Assembly (NCBI GenBank): GCA_031288415.1
Contig: JAITRL010000063.1
Span: 1-35,745, forward strand
Source: Deltaproteobacteria bacterium
Lineage (GTDB): Bacteria; Desulfobacterota; Desulfarculia; Adiutricales; Adiutricaceae
Direction: 5' to 3'
DNA: 35,745 bases
Part shown: piece by piece, positions 3,284 to 12,722 of the stretch
Numbering within the stretch: position 1 is the first letter of the stretch
Layout: each line of letters opens with the position of its first letter
Notes under the pieces: model-generated
What the model was told of the DNA's origin: nothing
Database searches by the model: none
What the model saw: the letters and a program-made list of their open reading frames with translations, nothing else
Program-made: the position numbers and the translations under genes

Positions 3284-5197
3284 ATGGGCCTAAAATCCAA
3301 AATAGCCATAGGCTTCGCCGCCATATGCCTCATTTTCATCGCGGTCAGCGTTATAGTCGCGGTAGAGCTCGCCGCGATCAGCTATGAGACCCATGAGCTG
3401 AACAACGTCATCACGCCGAGCGCCGCCAAGGCCGCCGAGCTCAAGTACTCGGTGACCCGCGAGGCGCTTCTGATCGCGGGTTACGCCGAGTCCGGCCAGG
3501 ACGGGCTTTGGGCGGCCGCTACGGAGGTCAGGCGGCTCAACAACGCCATGGCGGAGGAGCTCAAGGGCCCCGTCGGACTCCTGTCCGCGGACCGTCCTGA
3601 GCTGGCCCAGGGCCTTGCCGCGTTCGAAAGCAGCTACAGGAGGTTCCAGGAGTCAAGCGAGAGGCTGCCTGAGCTGAACCGTTCGGACCGGGACACCTGG
3701 GACAAGACGCTGAAGGAATATGACGGTTTCCAGGAGGCTTTGCGCGGATACGAGCAGGCCATGGACGAGCGGCTTGCGGCCTCCCTGCGGTCCGGGGCGG
3801 AATTTTCCGAACTCAAGATCCAGTACCGGAGGGTGGCGAGCGCAGCCGATCTCAGACGGCAGGGGGGGGATTTCTTCGCCACGCTGCAGGCCGGCCATCT
3901 CACGCGCGACGTGTCGGCCCTGGAGCGGTCGGCATCCATGCTCGAGCGGCTCAGGACAGCCTCGGAGGCCATCCGCGACGACACCAGGTTCCCGGCCAAC
4001 AAGGCGCTGCTGGAGACCGTGCTCTCTTCGCTGGCGGGGTGCAAGGAGGCCATAAGCCGGCTCAAGGTTTCCATAACCGCCAGCGCGTTCAGCATGACCG
4101 AAGGGGCTGAGGCCAGGAACCAGGCCATAGAGGCCATAACCGGGCTCTCCGGCGATTTCGGCCGGATGACGCGCGAGTTCGCGGAAATGACGGGGAGCTC
4201 CATCGGAGCGAGCCGGCGGCTCTTGCTCGTCGGAGTGGCGGCCGCGCTCGCCTTGAGCGCCGTCATGTCGATCCTGCTGATAAGGGGCATCGTGGGGCCC
4301 CTCGTCAGGATTTCCGAGGCCCTGGCCGACGGCTCCGTCGACGTGGACATGACGGCCGGCGAGATCTCCTCGGCTTCCGGGAAAGTGGCCGACGGCAACG
4401 CCCGCGCGGCGACCGCCCTGGAGGAGACGAGCGCCAGCGTGGAAGAGCTCTCCTCCATGACCCGACGCAACACGGAGAACGCGCTGAGGGCGAGGGAAGT
4501 GATCACCGGCGCGACCGAGTACGCCGCGAAGAGCGCGGAGAGCTCCGATCAGACCATGGACAAGGTGATGGAGGCCATGAACCAGATAGCGGCGAGCGGG
4601 AGCGAGATCGGCAAGATCATCAAGACCATCGACGAGATCGCCTTTCAGACGAACATTCTCGCGCTGAACGCTTCCGTGGAGGCGGCGCGGGCGGGGGAGG
4701 CCGGGGCCGGCTTCGCCGTGGTGGCCGATGAGGTCCGCAACCTGGCCATCAAGTCCAAGGAAGCGGCCAAGAACACCGGAGAGCTCATAGCGAACACCAT
4801 AGACAACATCAGCTTAGGCACGCGCCTGGTCAGGCAGTCCTCCGAGACGTTCAATGCCGTCGTCGAGAGCGTCAAGAAGGTGTATTCCTTAATCGGGGAA
4901 GTGGCCGAAGCATCCAAGCAGCAGGCGGCCGGCATAAGCCAGATCAACGCGGCGATCCGCCAGCTGGACCAGGTGACGCAGGGAAGCGCCGCCGTGTCCG
5001 AGGAGACGGCAAGCCACGCGGCCGTGCTTTCCCGCAACGCGGATCACCTTGAGGAGCAGGTGGAACAGCTGTTGCGCCTCATAGAGGGGAGCGCCGCCCG
5101 GCACCTCGCCACCGCCCGGGAAACCGCAGGCGCCGCCGGCCAGGGGGCCGGCCGGGGCGGAGGGCCCGCCGGAAGACTTTTGCCGCCCGCCTCATGA
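3284..5197 (+). CDS. Methyl-accepting chemotaxis protein
   Basis: This 637-residue transmembrane chemoreceptor would sense a periplasmic ligand and control CheA/CheW. The first transmembrane helix is at about residues 5-30. An all-helical periplasmic region of about 275 residues follows, which fits a helical bimodular (HBM) sensor better than a short four-helix bundle. The second transmembrane helix is at about 310-332, then a HAMP linker. The cytoplasmic signalling hairpin at about 450-490 carries the conserved DEIAFQTNILALNASVEAAR and GFAVVADEVRNLA stretches. The extreme C-terminus is Gly/Ala/Pro-rich and lacks a CheR-docking pentapeptide such as NWETF. The ATG at 3284 follows GGGAGAGTCAGG and puts the first transmembrane helix directly at the N-terminus. 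No chemotaxis genes lie nearby, so it appears to be a stand-alone receptor. The ligand cannot be predicted from the sequence. Confidence 0.95.
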   Translation: MGLKSKIAIGFAAICLIFIAVSVIVAVELAAISYETHELNNVITPSAAKAAELKYSVTREALLIAGYAESGQDGLWAAATEVRRLNNAMAEELKGPVGLLSADRPELAQGLAAFESSYRRFQESSERLPELNRSDRDTWDKTLKEYDGFQEALRGYEQAMDERLAASLRSGAEFSELKIQYRRVASAADLRRQGGDFFATLQAGHLTRDVSALERSASMLERLRTASEAIRDDTRFPANKALLETVLSSLAGCKEAISRLKVSITASAFSMTEGAEARNQAIEAITGLSGDFGRMTREFAEMTGSSIGASRRLLLVGVAAALALSAVMSILLIRGIVGPLVRISEALADGSVDVDMTAGEISSASGKVADGNARAATALEETSASVEELSSMTRRNTENALRAREVITGATEYAAKSAESSDQTMDKVMEAMNQIAASGSEIGKIIKTIDEIAFQTNILALNASVEAARAGEAGAGFAVVADEVRNLAIKSKEAAKNTGELIANTIDNISLGTRLVRQSSETFNAVVESVKKVYSLIGEVAEASKQQAAGISQINAAIRQLDQVTQGSAAVSEETASHAAVLSRNADHLEEQVEQLLRLIEGSAARHLATARETAGAAGQGAGRGGGPAGRLLPPAS

Positions 5198-7214: not shown

Positions 7215-10200
7215 CCGCCCCGGTGCGGACAGACATGACAAACCAAAGAAATTCAACCGGCCGTGCCGGGAAGACGAGGCGCGGGAGGCATCCCGGCCTT
7301 GCGGGGCGGCGCGGCCCTGCGGCGGGTCCTGAGTGGCGGCCCGCAAGGCCCGGGCGCGGGCCCGCAGGGCCCTACGCGGCAGGCCCAAGTCCAAGAAGCC
7401 GCGCCCCGGGCTTACGGGCGGGAATCGAGCGGGCGTCGGCGCAGGGCCCGGAAAAAAAAGCCTGCAAAGCCTGCAAGGTCGCCTCCGGCGCCTCGCTAAA
7501 GTCAGGCGCGCCGGCGTCGCGGGCCATGATATCCCCACGGCGAGGGCCGCAGGGAAGGCGCCCGGGACTTGCCGGGCGTCCCGGGCCGTTTGGCGGGGCG
7601 GCTGAAGGAGGCCTCAGCCGATATAAAGGTTCCGGCCCCAGGCGCGGCCGGGCGCCTGGGAAAAGGGCCGGGCCGCGGCATGGCTTTGGCGGGGGCGGGT
7701 CCGGACCGGCCGACAGGGACGTCCGGAGACCGCAGGCGCCGGGCTAAGGGGCCGCGGGGAAACAGGCCTGGCCCCCGGCCTGAACCGCTCATGAAGGCGC
7801 GGCGCCGGCTAAGAGCCCCGCCGCAAGGGAGGGAGCCTCATGCCTGCGCATGCCGCCTCATGCGTCTCATTCCCTGCATGCTTTTCTGCAGGTATTTCCT
7901 GTCCAATAAGGTAGCGGACTTCACTTTCAGCCCGGAGCGCCCGGCAAGCGAGGCGCGCGGAAGGCCGTTCGGGGGGGGATAGGGGGGCGGCCAGGCGGCA
8001 CCCGGCGGCGCTTGATAAGCTACAGGCCGCAGGCAGGCGCGGGCGCCTCGGGCGGCTTGGCAACGGTCAGGCTGCAGACGGCCGGGAACAAGGCGCAACG
8101 CGCCAGGCAAGGCTCGAGACTGCAGGGAAAGCCAGTCCTTCGCTCCCGCTTCCGGGCAAGTGCGGGAAGCGGTTTTCGGGAACCGGCGACAAGGAAAATG
8201 AGCTAATCAGAACCCGATTTCGCAAATGTTAAGGCAATGATGGCACAATTTATGTAAAGGCTCATCAGGGAGCCTGGAAGCCGAATCAGGCGCCCGGGAG
8301 GGCCGCTGACGTTTCTCGGCCTGCCGCGCCGCGGCATGGGGCTCTGCCGGCAAGGCGCCCCCGGTTCAGGCGCCGCGGCCCGGCGAACGGGTCAGGCCCG
8401 GGAATTTACAGGGCCGGCCGGAACGCGGCTTGCGGCCGGTAATCGCGGGCGGTCCGGCTGGTGAGGCGCGGGGCCTCCTTTCCTCCGGTAGGCAAGATAC
8501 CAGCATACGGCCGCGCTGTCAACGAGTCTCCCTCCGGGACCCCTGAGCCCGGTCGCCGCGCCTCCAATCGAGGCGGAGGCCCCTGAGCCCGTCCAGGCGG
8601 CTTGTGGGGTGCCGCCGAGGCTGTCAGGAGCCGGCACAGCGGCGGCGGCCCTGGTCGAAGGTCAGCCTGCGCGGGAAGGCTGAAGCCGCGGCTTGCAAAG
8701 AACTGTTCCGCCCGCCGGGACGGGTCCGGTCCCGTTGGGAGGGAGTTCAGGATGGAAGCGCGGGCGGAGCGGCGGCCGCGCCGGCCTGAAATTCGGAGGC
8801 CGCCGTGATTCATTTCGGCATCGGAACGTTTTTCGAACGCGGGAATGATTTTCGGCTTTGTCGGCGACGGCTTCGTTTACGGGAACGCCCGAACATTGCC
8901 GCGCGCGGATTCATGTGACATCCGGTCAAGGCTACGCCTGCCGCCTGCCGAGGGCAGGTCAGGTTTTCCGCCGCTTTCATCCGGTCGAGGCGCTTCGGCG
9001 CGCGGTGAAGCCGCGCCCGTCACTGAATCATGCCGCCATTGTCAAGGCCGCGACGATTCTAAACCGGGCTTCCGAAACAGGCTCTCAGGCTGTCCCGGGC
9101 GGCGGCGATCTTTCAGGCTGTTGCGGGGTCGCCGCTGGCGGGCAGGCCGACAAATCCGGCGGGCTGTCTTCAGCGCGCGAAAGCGAAGGCTATTTTTTTG
9201 GGGGGAGGCTTGGCGCAGGGTCCGGCGCCAAGGCGCCCGGCGCCGGGCCGTATCCCGCCGCCTGGATCTCGCGCCCGAAGCGGCTTAAGCGGTTTAAGGC
9301 CGCCGCCGGCATACCCAGGGCGCTCCGGCGGAAGTCGGCATGTTCCTCAAGGCGGCCGGAAGTATCCAAGCGGGGGGACGGCGCCTTTTCCGGAAAAGCC
9401 CGGCCAGGCGGCCGCGGAAGGCAAGGCAGGCTGAAATCATCGCGATTTTCCGGTCGCGGATTCAGGAGGCTTCCGAGGCCTGCGCGGCCGGGGACGCTTC
9501 ATGCTCGGCGTCTCGGCGAGGCCGCGCCGGCGCCGGCCGGATCAGAAGCAAACGCCGGAACGACGGGGGATGTTGGTTCTCGGGGGGGCGCGCAGGTGAT
9601 CATGGCGGGGCTCCGTTTACGCCCCGAGGGCGCTTTTGCGCGCAGGCTCATGCGGCAGGAGCCTGCAGGCGCGAGGGTCGGGTCTCAAGGCCAGGGAAAG
9701 CCGGAGGCGCCGCAAGACGGCGTCAGCGGGGGCATTGGCCGCAGGGAAGGCTTGCCCCGCGAGGGGCGCGGCTTCGCTTTTCAGGCAGCGGCTTGGCCCG
9801 GCTTGGGAAAGCGGGCCGCGGCACGTCTCAGGCAAATATGAGGGAGACTGAAGGCGGAAGCAGGATCAGGAGCCTGTCGAATTGAGCCTGAAGCGGCCTT
9901 GGCCCGGGCTGTCAAGGCTTCCGGCGGCTTGGCCGTCGAAGTCACCTGCAAGCCGCGCGATCCGGCATCCGGGGGCCTGAAGGACGGCGCGGGGACACCC
10001 TGCGGCGTACCGGCGGAAGGCGCCAAGGTTGACATGACGTTGGCCCGCGCCGGGCTCGGGGGCCGTTAATTCCGCTCCCCGGAAAGCCGGGGGCGGGGCA
10101 GGCAAAGCGGCTGTCGCGGGGTTCATGGCTCAGCCGCGTGGCCGGATATCGCGAGCGGTTGAAAGCGCGCGGCAAGCGAGCGGCGCTGTCGGCGATTGGC

Positions 10201-10350
10201 GGGAGGATCGGCCTTAAGGCAGGCCGGATTCCTGCCGGATGACTCCGACAGGGTCGGCCCTGCCGGCGCCTGCGCGGGAAAGCCTGCAGCAGCGGGGCTT
10301 AGGTGAGTCAGGGAAGAGCGCCGCGGCCTTCCGTACTTGCGGCTTCGCCT
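7215..10350. other. 3.1-kb gene-poor GC-rich region
   Basis: This is the longest stretch without a recognisable gene. Many overlapping ORFs of up to 327 aa exist in both directions, but their translations are Arg/Ala/Gly/Pro-rich, show no domain or membrane pattern and mostly lack ribosome sites. A lower-GC patch near 8195-8270 contains no complete gene. I could not identify decayed genes by eye, although erosion of former genes is one possible origin of this DNA. Confidence 0.55.
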
Positions 10351-10953
10351 CTAAGGGCGGAGGGGGCGCGGCGGCCGGGCGCCGGGGTCAGCGGAAGGTT
10401 TGGCGGGCTCGGTCTTTGGATCGTTGGGTTGATTCTTTTCCGCAGGCGGCTGACAAGGCAAAGCGCCGCTGTTTATCGGGGTCGTCTGCCTAATGCAAGG
10501 GTCAGCATCAGCAAATTTTATTTTGACTAGCAAGTTAGGGTCGAAGTTGATTTTTAAAATTTCAGGCAAATTTTCCGGAAAAGTCAGGTTTTCAGGTAGT
10601 TGTATGTTAGGCAAAGATTCCATAAAAGGCATAAATGAATTGTAAATATTAGAGTATAAATGATATAATAGTATATCATAATAAGTATGAGCAAGATAAT
10701 TACCGATATCACATAAAGGTTTCCATTTTATTTGTTTATTTAGATGTTGAATAACATTATCATCGATCCGCGAAAGCACTTGTATTGATCTTGAGTATTT
10801 TAAGATATTATAAACTAATGAATCAAAAATAAAGAATTCAATAACAGGGCGTTGTATAGAAACAATAGGAGTGATAAATGATAAATTATTATTTGAAGTA
10901 ATAATATCTAAAATACAATAATTAAATGTAGTATTTAAGCGAAAATCAGCCAT
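10351..10953 (-). CDS. HEPN-domain (DUF86/HepT-like) protein with chimeric C-terminus
   Basis: The first ~150 of 200 residues look like a HepT/DUF86 HEPN protein, the RNase toxin partner of an MNT nucleotidyltransferase. It is all-helical, with WKPLCDIGNYLAHTYYDI matching the region of the Rx4HxY active-site motif. Here the Arg position is Gly84 (GGT), while His89 and Tyr91 are kept, so RNase activity may be reduced or lost. The last ~50 residues, from about FADADPC onward, are encoded by GC-rich DNA of the flanking genome and are Pro/Ala-rich. This suggests that the original stop was lost at the islet edge and the frame now runs into host sequence. The start overlaps the upstream antitoxin gene by eight bases, the usual order and spacing for this pair. 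The family call is from pattern and gene context, and overall similarity is moderate. Confidence 0.7.
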   Translation of the reverse strand: MADFRLNTTFNYCILDIITSNNNLSFITPIVSIQRPVIEFFIFDSLVYNILKYSRSIQVLSRIDDNVIQHLNKQIKWKPLCDIGNYLAHTYYDILLYHLYSNIYNSFMPFMESLPNIQLPENLTFPENLPEILKINFDPNLLVKIKFADADPCIRQTTPINSGALPCQPPAEKNQPNDPKTEPAKPSADPGARPPRPLRP

Positions 10954-11278
10954 TTAGTTGGCCTAAAAATTGTTTGAAAGGGCGGGCATAACTGAAAATA
11001 TGTTTAGCGATCAATGGTCTTAATTCTAAATCTTCAAATAAATCTACTTTGATATCTAAAAGAACTTCTAAATCGTCATAAAAATGCACATAATCATTAT
11101 AATTAAAATAATTTTTTGATTTGAAGGTATATATAAGATCAAGATCACTATTTTCAGTGTCTTCGCCTCTGGCGACGGAACCGTGAATTTTGACGTCGGT
11201 AAACCCCAATTGCTCGTATTTATTGACAATCTCAAGGACCTTGTCCCTGTTTTCTTTCAGTTTTTCGGTGGGTGTCAT
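10946..11278 (-). CDS. MNT-type minimal nucleotidyltransferase, antitoxin of HEPN pair
   Basis: This 110-residue protein has the nucleotidyltransferase signature GSVARGEDTENSDLDL at residues 33-48, that is GSxxRG followed by the two metal-binding aspartates in SDLDL. A third acidic position lies in the later LLDIKVDLFEDL segment, as in MNT proteins. In studied MntA-HepT systems the MNT partner AMPylates the HEPN toxin and so neutralises it. Start ATG at 11278 is preceded by a strong AAGGAGGG ribosome site. It comes first in the two-gene unit and overlaps the HEPN gene by eight bases, so the two are probably translationally coupled. AT-rich codon use marks it as foreign. The active-site residues look intact, in contrast to the altered HEPN partner. 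The family call is confident. The toxin-antitoxin role is inferred from the pairing. Confidence 0.85.
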   Translation of the reverse strand: MTPTEKLKENRDKVLEIVNKYEQLGFTDVKIHGSVARGEDTENSDLDLIYTFKSKNYFNYNDYVHFYDDLEVLLDIKVDLFEDLELRPLIAKHIFSYARPFKQFLGQLNG

Positions 11279-11306
11279 GATGTACCCTCCTTGAAATTAC
11301 TAATAG

Positions 11307-11327
11307 CAAATATCCGTCCAAATATCC
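11307..11327 (-). promoter_or_regulatory. Direct repeat in the MNT gene leader, candidate operator
   Basis: Two exact copies of CAAATATCC (11307-11315 and 11319-11327) are separated by three bases and lie about 30 bases upstream of the MNT start. A 12-bp centre spacing suits a protein binding one face of the helix. Autoregulation is common in toxin-antitoxin operons but is only inferred here. Confidence 0.4.
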
Positions 11328-11470
11328 ACACAAAGAGCCAAGCGGAGATGAAGCACGGCAAGTGCCAATCTCTTATGGAATTTTTTTGTACTAAAAAACT
11401 AGAAGAATTAGTAAGAAGAGTTAAAAAATAAGAAATTGCAATTGTATTTGGAAAAATTATGATCGGCAAA

Positions 11471-12009
11471 AGTTAGCTGGTTTGCGGCGTCAGATGCACC
11501 GGCGGGCGCAAAGCACGCAAATTCAATCGCGGAAGCGCACCGATAAAACATGTCCGTGGCAGTTTCTGTCTGGTTGGAAAATATGCGCCGGAACTGTTTT
11601 CCTTAAAGAGGAAAAGGGCGAGGAAGAGAAAACGAGCGGCAACTGACTGCAGGCGTCAAGGGAACAGGCCTGCAGGCGAAAGCGGCCGGCGCGCCGGAGC
11701 GGCAGGTCCGGCGGAAGAGTCGGGGCCTGCCCTTGCCGGCGGCATGGCGGCGCCCGCCGGTCAGCCTATGGCGCGCGCGGGATTTCGGCGGGCAACCAGG
11801 CTGTCAGCGCGGAGCCTGCGGAGTCCCCGTGAGCCGGTCCGGCGGAAGGCTGCCTCTCTCCTTAAGACGGGGCCTGAAGCCTCGTCGCCGGCGGCCAGGG
11901 AGGCCATATCGCGCCATCCGGCAGGCGGCCGGCGCCAGGATTCCTGCAGGCGCAGGAAGCGCGGGGCCTGTCGGGAAAAATCCAGGGAGACGGCGGGAGG
12001 CCGCAACGG
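11471..12009. other. GC-rich spacer between islet and tRNA gene
   Basis: No credible gene is seen in this stretch. Short ORFs on both strands are Arg/Ala-rich and overlap one another. The composition returns to the host level at the left edge. Confidence 0.5.
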
Positions 12010-12052
12010 AAAAAACCCTAAACCCTTGGTTTTGCAAGGGCTTAGGGTTTTA
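12010..12052 (-). terminator. Rho-independent terminator of the tRNA-Glu transcript
   Basis: On the minus strand, AAACCCTAAGCCCTT pairs with AAGGGTTTAGGGTTT (one G-U pair) and is followed by a run of U. It lies 20 bases beyond the tRNA 3' end and fits termination of that transcript. Confidence 0.85.
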
Positions 12053-12071
12053 AGGCGTTGAAGGCCTAGCC

Positions 12072-12147
12072 TGGTAGTCCCAAGGGGACTCGAACCCCTG
12101 TTTTCGCCGTGAGAGGGCGGTGTCCTAGACCGCTAGACGATGGGACC
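12072..12147 (-). tRNA. tRNA-Glu (anticodon CTC)
   Basis: A complete 76-base cloverleaf can be folded. The acceptor stem is GGTCCCA with TGGGACT (first pair G-U), the D arm is GTCTAGCGGTCTAGGAC, and the anticodon arm is CCGCC-CTCTCAC-GGCGA with CTC at positions 34-36. The T arm is AGGGG-TTCGAGT-CCCCT. Discriminator A73 is followed by an encoded CCA. The top pair of the anticodon stem is a C-A mismatch. CTC reads GAG, the codon expected to dominate in this GC-rich genome. It is a single gene with its own terminator. Confidence 0.95.
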
Positions 12148-12573
12148 TCAACGGGAAGAAAAAAATAGCAGGACCTGGCGGAAAAAGCAAGCCTTTTGCC
12201 TGCGCGCGGAGCACAGGCGCAGGCCGTCGCAGGGGGCGCCGTGAGCATGACAGGACAGTTCGAAGCAGGCTCTGACGGTTCATGGACAGTGTCCGGCTTC
12301 CGGGGCGGAATGCGGTAGGTATCCGGGAAATGCCGGCGGGCCCTGGAAGGAGCGGGAGGCTTAGGGAGGGCTTCCTCGGAGGCTCGTGCCCCGCTTCATT
12401 GGCCGGGCCCGGCGCTTGAGGTTTGCCTGGGAGCCGACTGCGGCGATGCTGCCGGGCGCGCCTGGGCGGCCTTATTGCGGAAAGAGCTCTTCAGGCGCGG
12501 GCAGGGATTCGCCGGCCAGGCCGCGAGAGGGCCGGGGGGCAGACGGGGGGCGCCGGTCCGCGCCGCGCGGCCG
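12148..12573. other. Spacer between divergent tRNA and haem operon
   Basis: GC-rich sequence with no recognisable gene. It should contain the minus-strand tRNA promoter, but I could not identify a convincing -35/-10 pair. Confidence 0.45.
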
Positions 12574-12602
12574 TTGATTAAGGGTTGCCGCGCTGTTAAA
12601 AT
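12574..12602 (+). promoter_or_regulatory. Sigma-70 promoter of the fmdB-hemC-cobA/hemD operon
   Basis: TTGATT (12574-12579) and TAAAAT (12597-12602) are separated by an ideal 17-base spacer, four and five matches to consensus respectively. Transcription would start near 12609, about 140 bases upstream of fmdB. It is one of the best promoters in the window. Confidence 0.7.
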
Positions 12603-12608
12603 AGAAGA

Positions 12609-12722
12609 TACCCCGCTTCCGGGGGAGCCCCCCCCGATGGCCTGTCCGTGCCGGGAAAATAGCCCGGAGGGCGGCGGCGCCCGGCATGCCTTTCCCGCAC
12701 CGGTCGGGAAAGGCGTTTTTTT
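12609..12722 (+). ncRNA. Candidate leader RNA or attenuator ahead of the tetrapyrrole operon
   Basis: Between the promoter and a terminator lies about 114 bases of structured RNA. It opens with a perfect CCCCG-CTTC-CGGGG hairpin. In the middle, CCGGG (12651-12655) can pair locally with CCCGG (12663-12667), or, as TGCCGGG (12649-12655), with CCCGGCA (12680-12686) directly before the terminator stem. Such competing pairings next to a terminator are typical of attenuators and riboswitches. It matches no riboswitch class I recognise. It could also be an independent small RNA ending at the terminator. Confidence 0.4.
12688..12722 (+). terminator. Intrinsic terminator inside the fmdB leader
   Basis: A perfect ten-pair stem (GCCTTTCCCG / CGGGAAAGGC) with a seven-base loop is followed by seven T residues, only 26 bases before the fmdB start. 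Its placement after a good promoter and before an operon suggests conditional termination. Confidence 0.85.

Follow-up and report, generated by a model that had tools for sequence, protein, structure and literature searches.

Two overlapping genes on the reverse strand lie in an AT-rich islet of the window, by which we mean the whole 35,745-nucleotide stretch of DNA analysed. The first-pass annotation had placed a HEPN/MNT pair between 10351 and 11470; both genes are read there, although the pair itself stops at 11278. The features at and near the islet are:

10946..11278, minus strand: MNT, a MntA-like minimal nucleotidyltransferase, first gene of the pair (110 aa)
11138..11182, minus strand: GSx10DxD nucleotidyltransferase motif, MNT residues 33-47, read in the sequence
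10351..10953, minus strand: HEPN (HepT-like), second gene of the pair (200 aa)
10789..10791, minus strand: HEPN Arg55, aligned by hhalign with the invariant HepT Glu ('IGE')
10681..10704, minus strand: degenerate Rx4HxY motif, Gly84-NYLA-His89-Thr-Tyr91, placed by the canonical Arg column
10351..10464, minus strand: Pro-rich, basic C-terminal tail of HEPN, residues 164-200, ALPCQPPAEK...RPPRPLRP and stop, defined by comparison of copies
12072..12147, minus strand: tRNA-Glu (CTC), upstream of the islet, found with ARAGORN

The two genes overlap by 8 bp, and a Shine-Dalgarno-like AAGGAGG for the MNT gene is found at 11286-11292. The GC profile agrees with the earlier description of a sharply AT-rich islet in DNA of about 70% GC, falling to 0.25-0.40 between ∼10430 and ∼11450 against ∼0.71 around it. 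Both frames are longer than chance gives: the AT-rich core of HEPN has 157 stop-free codons, compared to a maximum of 115 and a mean of 55 in 1000 dinucleotide shuffles, and the length of the MNT frame was equalled in three of 1000. A 64-aa frame at 11275-11469 has no significant family match, its sole Pfam match being under that family's cut-off. We also note that the surrounding ∼5.4 kb (7250-12650) is GC-rich with long overlapping frames and looks gene-poor besides the islet and the tRNA-Glu; a Pfam search with two of these long frames gave no match.

The host genome (G000) contains four copies of the pair, all with the same gene order: C77 in the window, C144, C132 and C308. The assembly is 83% complete in 381 contigs, and further copies may exist. 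C77 and C144 are intact, and the other two are pseudogenes, C132 with a frameshifted HEPN and C308 with stops in both genes and without the 3′ half of HEPN. The tRNA-Glu of the window lies ∼0.8 kb from the islet, and a degenerate tRNA-Glu also stands alongside the pseudogene pair of C132 (L177, ∼3607-3913); the upstream flanks of these two copies, including the tRNA-Glu, are 77% identical over 320 bp. Because of this common flank, it is probable that C77 and C132 derive from one duplicated segment carrying both tRNA and islet.

The same tRNA-Glu adjoins the hemC neighbourhood in the congeners G003 and G001, and in G003 the 2.4 kb 3′ of it have a GC content of 0.68-0.81 and no islet. The suggestion that the genes were acquired is thus borne out to the extent that the islet was probably gained at this site, being absent from the same tRNA-Glu/hemC neighbourhood in a congener. 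No tRNA-derived direct repeat that could mark an attachment site was found at the other end of the islet. Searches for the HEPN family covered 60 related genomes, 395 from the same phylum and 63 from the same class, with one genome taken per species, and recovered it in its own genome only; none was found in the congeners, the matches within the phylum are ordinary HepTs, and no relatives were confirmed in phages, plasmids, viral contigs or genome contigs. A scan with MNT returned one distant rumen MAG among genome contigs and no match among viral contigs. HEPN/MNT pairs as such are numerous in the host family, with up to 13 Pol-beta domain matches per genome, and most of the MNT-linked HepTs sampled there keep Rx4HxY. 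The intact C144 copy adjoins a gene (L002 2406-3600) that by eye resembles AAA-ATPase-like proteins of the DUF1703 type.

The first gene reads as a clear minimal nucleotidyltransferase. It scores above the Pfam cut-offs for Polbeta (E 4e-10) and NTP_transf_2 (E 2.5e-9), matches the PADLOC candidate model PDC-S09 (E 4.7e-22), and also matches NCBIfam MntA_antitoxin (E 7.6e-9), at 35.4 bits, under the 60-bit equivalog cut-off. The PDC-S09 match is to MNT alone and is therefore uninformative as to the HEPN partner. MNT shares 75-81% identity with its three paralogues, and its motif, GSVARGEDTENSDLD, reads GSx10DxD and is the same in three copies, with a near-identical version in the fourth, so that the signature is intact, as was first described. 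In the 5′ part of the gene the copies share 83-92% of their DNA sequence, against ∼70% elsewhere. We considered a mosaic origin for this segment and rejected it, since its synonymous divergence (0.43-0.71) overlaps that of the remainder (0.63-1.5) and stronger protein constraint mostly explains the similarity. Between C77 and C144, dN/dS is 0.07 for MNT residues 1-49, 0.34 for residues 50-108 and 0.42 for HEPN, pairwise values that average over the past and are no proof of selection today; they nonetheless make a convincing case, at the level of sequence comparison, that the MNT signature was kept under strong purifying selection.

The second gene is a divergent relative of HepT. Profile-profile alignment (hhalign) of the two intact HEPN copies with 14 HepT proteins gives a probability of 93% (E 3.7e-7), and an HMM of Arg-bearing HepTs matches the window HEPN with an E-value of 1.8e-4; the Pfam HepT-like family matches weakly (E 0.047, 13.9 bits, below the gathering score of 23.5). 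No PADLOC model matches HEPN, a sequence search of solved structures gave chance matches only, and a structure prediction of HEPN alone reached a pLDDT of 38, too low to be of use. By these alignments HEPN is a distant homologue of HepT whose sequence has diverged beyond the reach of the Pfam HepT-like threshold.

The two alignment methods agree in placing Gly84 (GGT, 10702-10704) in the Arg column of Rx4HxY, with His89 and Tyr91 on the motif His and Tyr, as had been proposed for the Gly; hhalign also places Trp77 on a conserved Trp of HepT. The residue 84 column has Gly in C77 and C132, Ile in C144 and Asp in the wreck of C308. The full Rx4HxY motif is thus found in none of the copies that bear the motif region, Gly or Ile replacing Arg in each while His and Tyr are kept. 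A single-base change, CGT to GGT, had been offered as an explanation of the Arg loss; as a recent event in this copy it is contradicted by the paralogues, which hold Gly or Ile in this column. Because no other copy has an Arg, the parsimonious reading is that it was already absent in the common ancestor of the copies. More generally, a lone odd active-site residue is best compared with paralogues before decay is called.

The same comparison bears on the C-terminus, where the frame had been thought to run on for some 50 codons into host DNA. The compositional part of this description stands, as GC3 is 0.68 in the last ∼50 HEPN codons and 0.20 before. The shift to GC-rich codons is common to C144, however, and three copies have similar tails, with 25 of 37 residues identical between C77 and C132, 21 of 37 between C77 and C144 and 27 of 37 between C132 and C144 (57-73%), above the 49% identity of the whole HEPN between C77 and C144. 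All three tails end in RP and a stop. Among HepT-like proteins a Pro-rich basic C-terminus occurs in 13 of 33 from the host family and 1 of 42 from other families (p 4e-5, by a criterion set after the sequences were seen). Its conservation among the three copies, together with the frequency of Pro/basic tails in the host family, shows the tail to be native and not read-through. The endings of HepT-like proteins in the host family (G000-G036) include TPRP, PKFKP and PRLKP, and such endings are rare in the other families of the phylum.

The initial picture, in which C77 recently lost its Arg through one base change and its frame reads on into host DNA, can be drawn from C77 by itself, whose codon 84 is one base from CGT and whose final ∼50 codons are GC-rich; against copies that all lack the Arg and a tail conserved to the same end in three of them, it has become very improbable. 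Subfamily homologues with a native Gly and an extended C-terminus had been named beforehand as grounds for giving it up; C132, now frameshifted, has both features, and C144 comes close, with Ile and a long tail.

A second conserved residue is altered as well. The 14 reference HepTs have an invariant Glu in a helix preceding the motif, and in its column the window HEPN has Arg55, within a KYSRSI sequence present in all four copies; the HMM likewise assigns C144 and C132 an R at this position. Among ∼70 HEPN domains sampled across the host phylum, a small set with relatedness ignored, the helix Glu is present in 60 of 64 Arg-bearing domains and in none of four independent Arg-less cases (the window family, G015 C11 and two domains in G001 C215; Fisher p 9e-5), suggesting that Glu and Arg tend to be lost as a pair. 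The aligned copies show that both the Rx4H Arg and the helix Glu had disappeared from HEPN by the time the copies split, and that the His and Tyr of the motif, the Trp of the helix and the Pro/basic tail were retained.

The significance of these losses depends on what the Arg does, and here the published HEPNs disagree. In Shewanella HepT the same change, R97G, ends toxicity (PMC4621449), while the Legionella HEPN remains toxic and RNase-active as R98A or H103A, its motif Arg and His being dispensable and Q44/E47 binding Mg2+ (PMC11586414). Because of the Legionella mutants, Arg loss alone is no proof of inactivity, and we have considered that HEPN may still be a toxin, an active ribonuclease whose catalytic site has been rebuilt and which MNT would neutralise through AMP on Tyr91. 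Arg55 might supply the positive charge of the motif Arg, or His89 alone might suffice. The presence of Arg55 in all four copies, at the position of a Glu invariant among the reference HepTs, would fit such a rebuilding, as would the retention of His89 and Tyr91 in both intact copies and C132, a HEPN dN/dS below 1, and the Legionella HEPN itself, toxic through residues other than the motif Arg. We nonetheless think it rather unlikely, given that R97G abolishes toxicity in Shewanella HepT, that the Legionella site would be lost here too should E47 be the counterpart of the helix Glu, and that no structure places Arg55 near His89, the HEPN model having so low a pLDDT. The bolder formulation, of a toxin whose active site was relocated by a move of Arg from the Rx4H motif to the helix-Glu position in a multi-copy family confined to a single genome, strikes us as doubtful.

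It was also suggested that this is a tamed toxin on its way to decay, which holds for the two pseudogene copies but not for the window copy, whose frames are kept and which is not obviously decaying. The whole family might nevertheless be a selfish module in slow decay, its toxin disarmed once and its copies drifting since, with the intact frames merely unbroken as yet. The lesions of C132 and C308, and the degenerate tRNA-Glu duplicate beside C132, are what such a history would leave. C77 and C144, however, both retain two open frames at a synonymous divergence of ∼0.8, nonsynonymous change has been held down in HEPN (pS 0.50, pN 0.28), and their net length difference consists of whole codons only, in the tail region; for residues 160-200 alone (pS 0.40, pN 0.28) the gap is too small to tell. 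We consider slow decay of the module unlikely, a little more so than a rebuilt ribonuclease.

We favor, with middling confidence, the interpretation that this is a divergent MntA/HepT-type pair in which HEPN has probably ceased to act as an Rx4H ribonuclease, having been retained as the Tyr-bearing partner of an active MNT. MNT would be produced first and then bind HEPN, and, to judge from the motifs, would place AMP on Tyr91 as MntA does on HepT; in MntA/HepT the motif Tyr accepts the AMP and GSx10DxD forms the transferase site (PMC7641770). HEPN would then be a tamed, non-RNase protein serving mainly as acceptor and partner of MNT, and any leftover growth effect could come from RNA or MNT binding. 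In most HEPN domains fused to MNTs the RNase residues are missing, and a role in substrate binding or regulation has been proposed for such domains (PMC3710099). Of the two outcomes first put forward, a HEPN acting without RNase activity seems more likely than a tamed toxin on its way to decay.

In its architecture the pair resembles the type VII MntA/HepT systems of Shewanella (SO_3165/SO_3166), Aphanizomenon and Legionella, with MNT first, HEPN second and the genes overlapping, with GSx10DxD in MNT, and with a HEPN whose motif has its His and Tyr and is preceded by a conserved Trp. It differs from them in that HEPN is without the Rx4HxY Arg, has an Arg at the helix-Glu position, carries a long Pro/basic tail and falls under the Pfam HepT-like cut-off; membership of type VII, with a toxic HEPN neutralised through AMP transfer, is putative. 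The class II HEPN/MNT pairs (PF05168/PF01909; PMC7641770) are similar in combining an intact MNT signature with a HEPN that has a Tyr but no Rx4H RNase motif; their HEPN is, however, a separate family, and that of the window resembles the class I HepT (PF01934) and keeps the His. The Shewanella and Legionella HEPNs leave the Arg requirement in dispute, and a family that occurs naturally in several copies, with Arg and helix Glu both replaced and MNT intact, provides a test of the role of HEPN without its RNase motif.

Arg-less HEPN genes occur at two other loci of the phylum sample. In G015 C11 (L179 775-1303) a 176-aa HepT-like protein has Ser at the positions of both the motif Arg and the helix Glu, and its tail is rich in Lys. 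In G001 C215, from the same genus as the host, there are neighbouring degenerate HEPN genes (L095 42-582, 1020-1794); one is a 258-aa double HEPN with Lys replacing Arg and Tyr replacing His in its first half, and the other has Ala for Arg.
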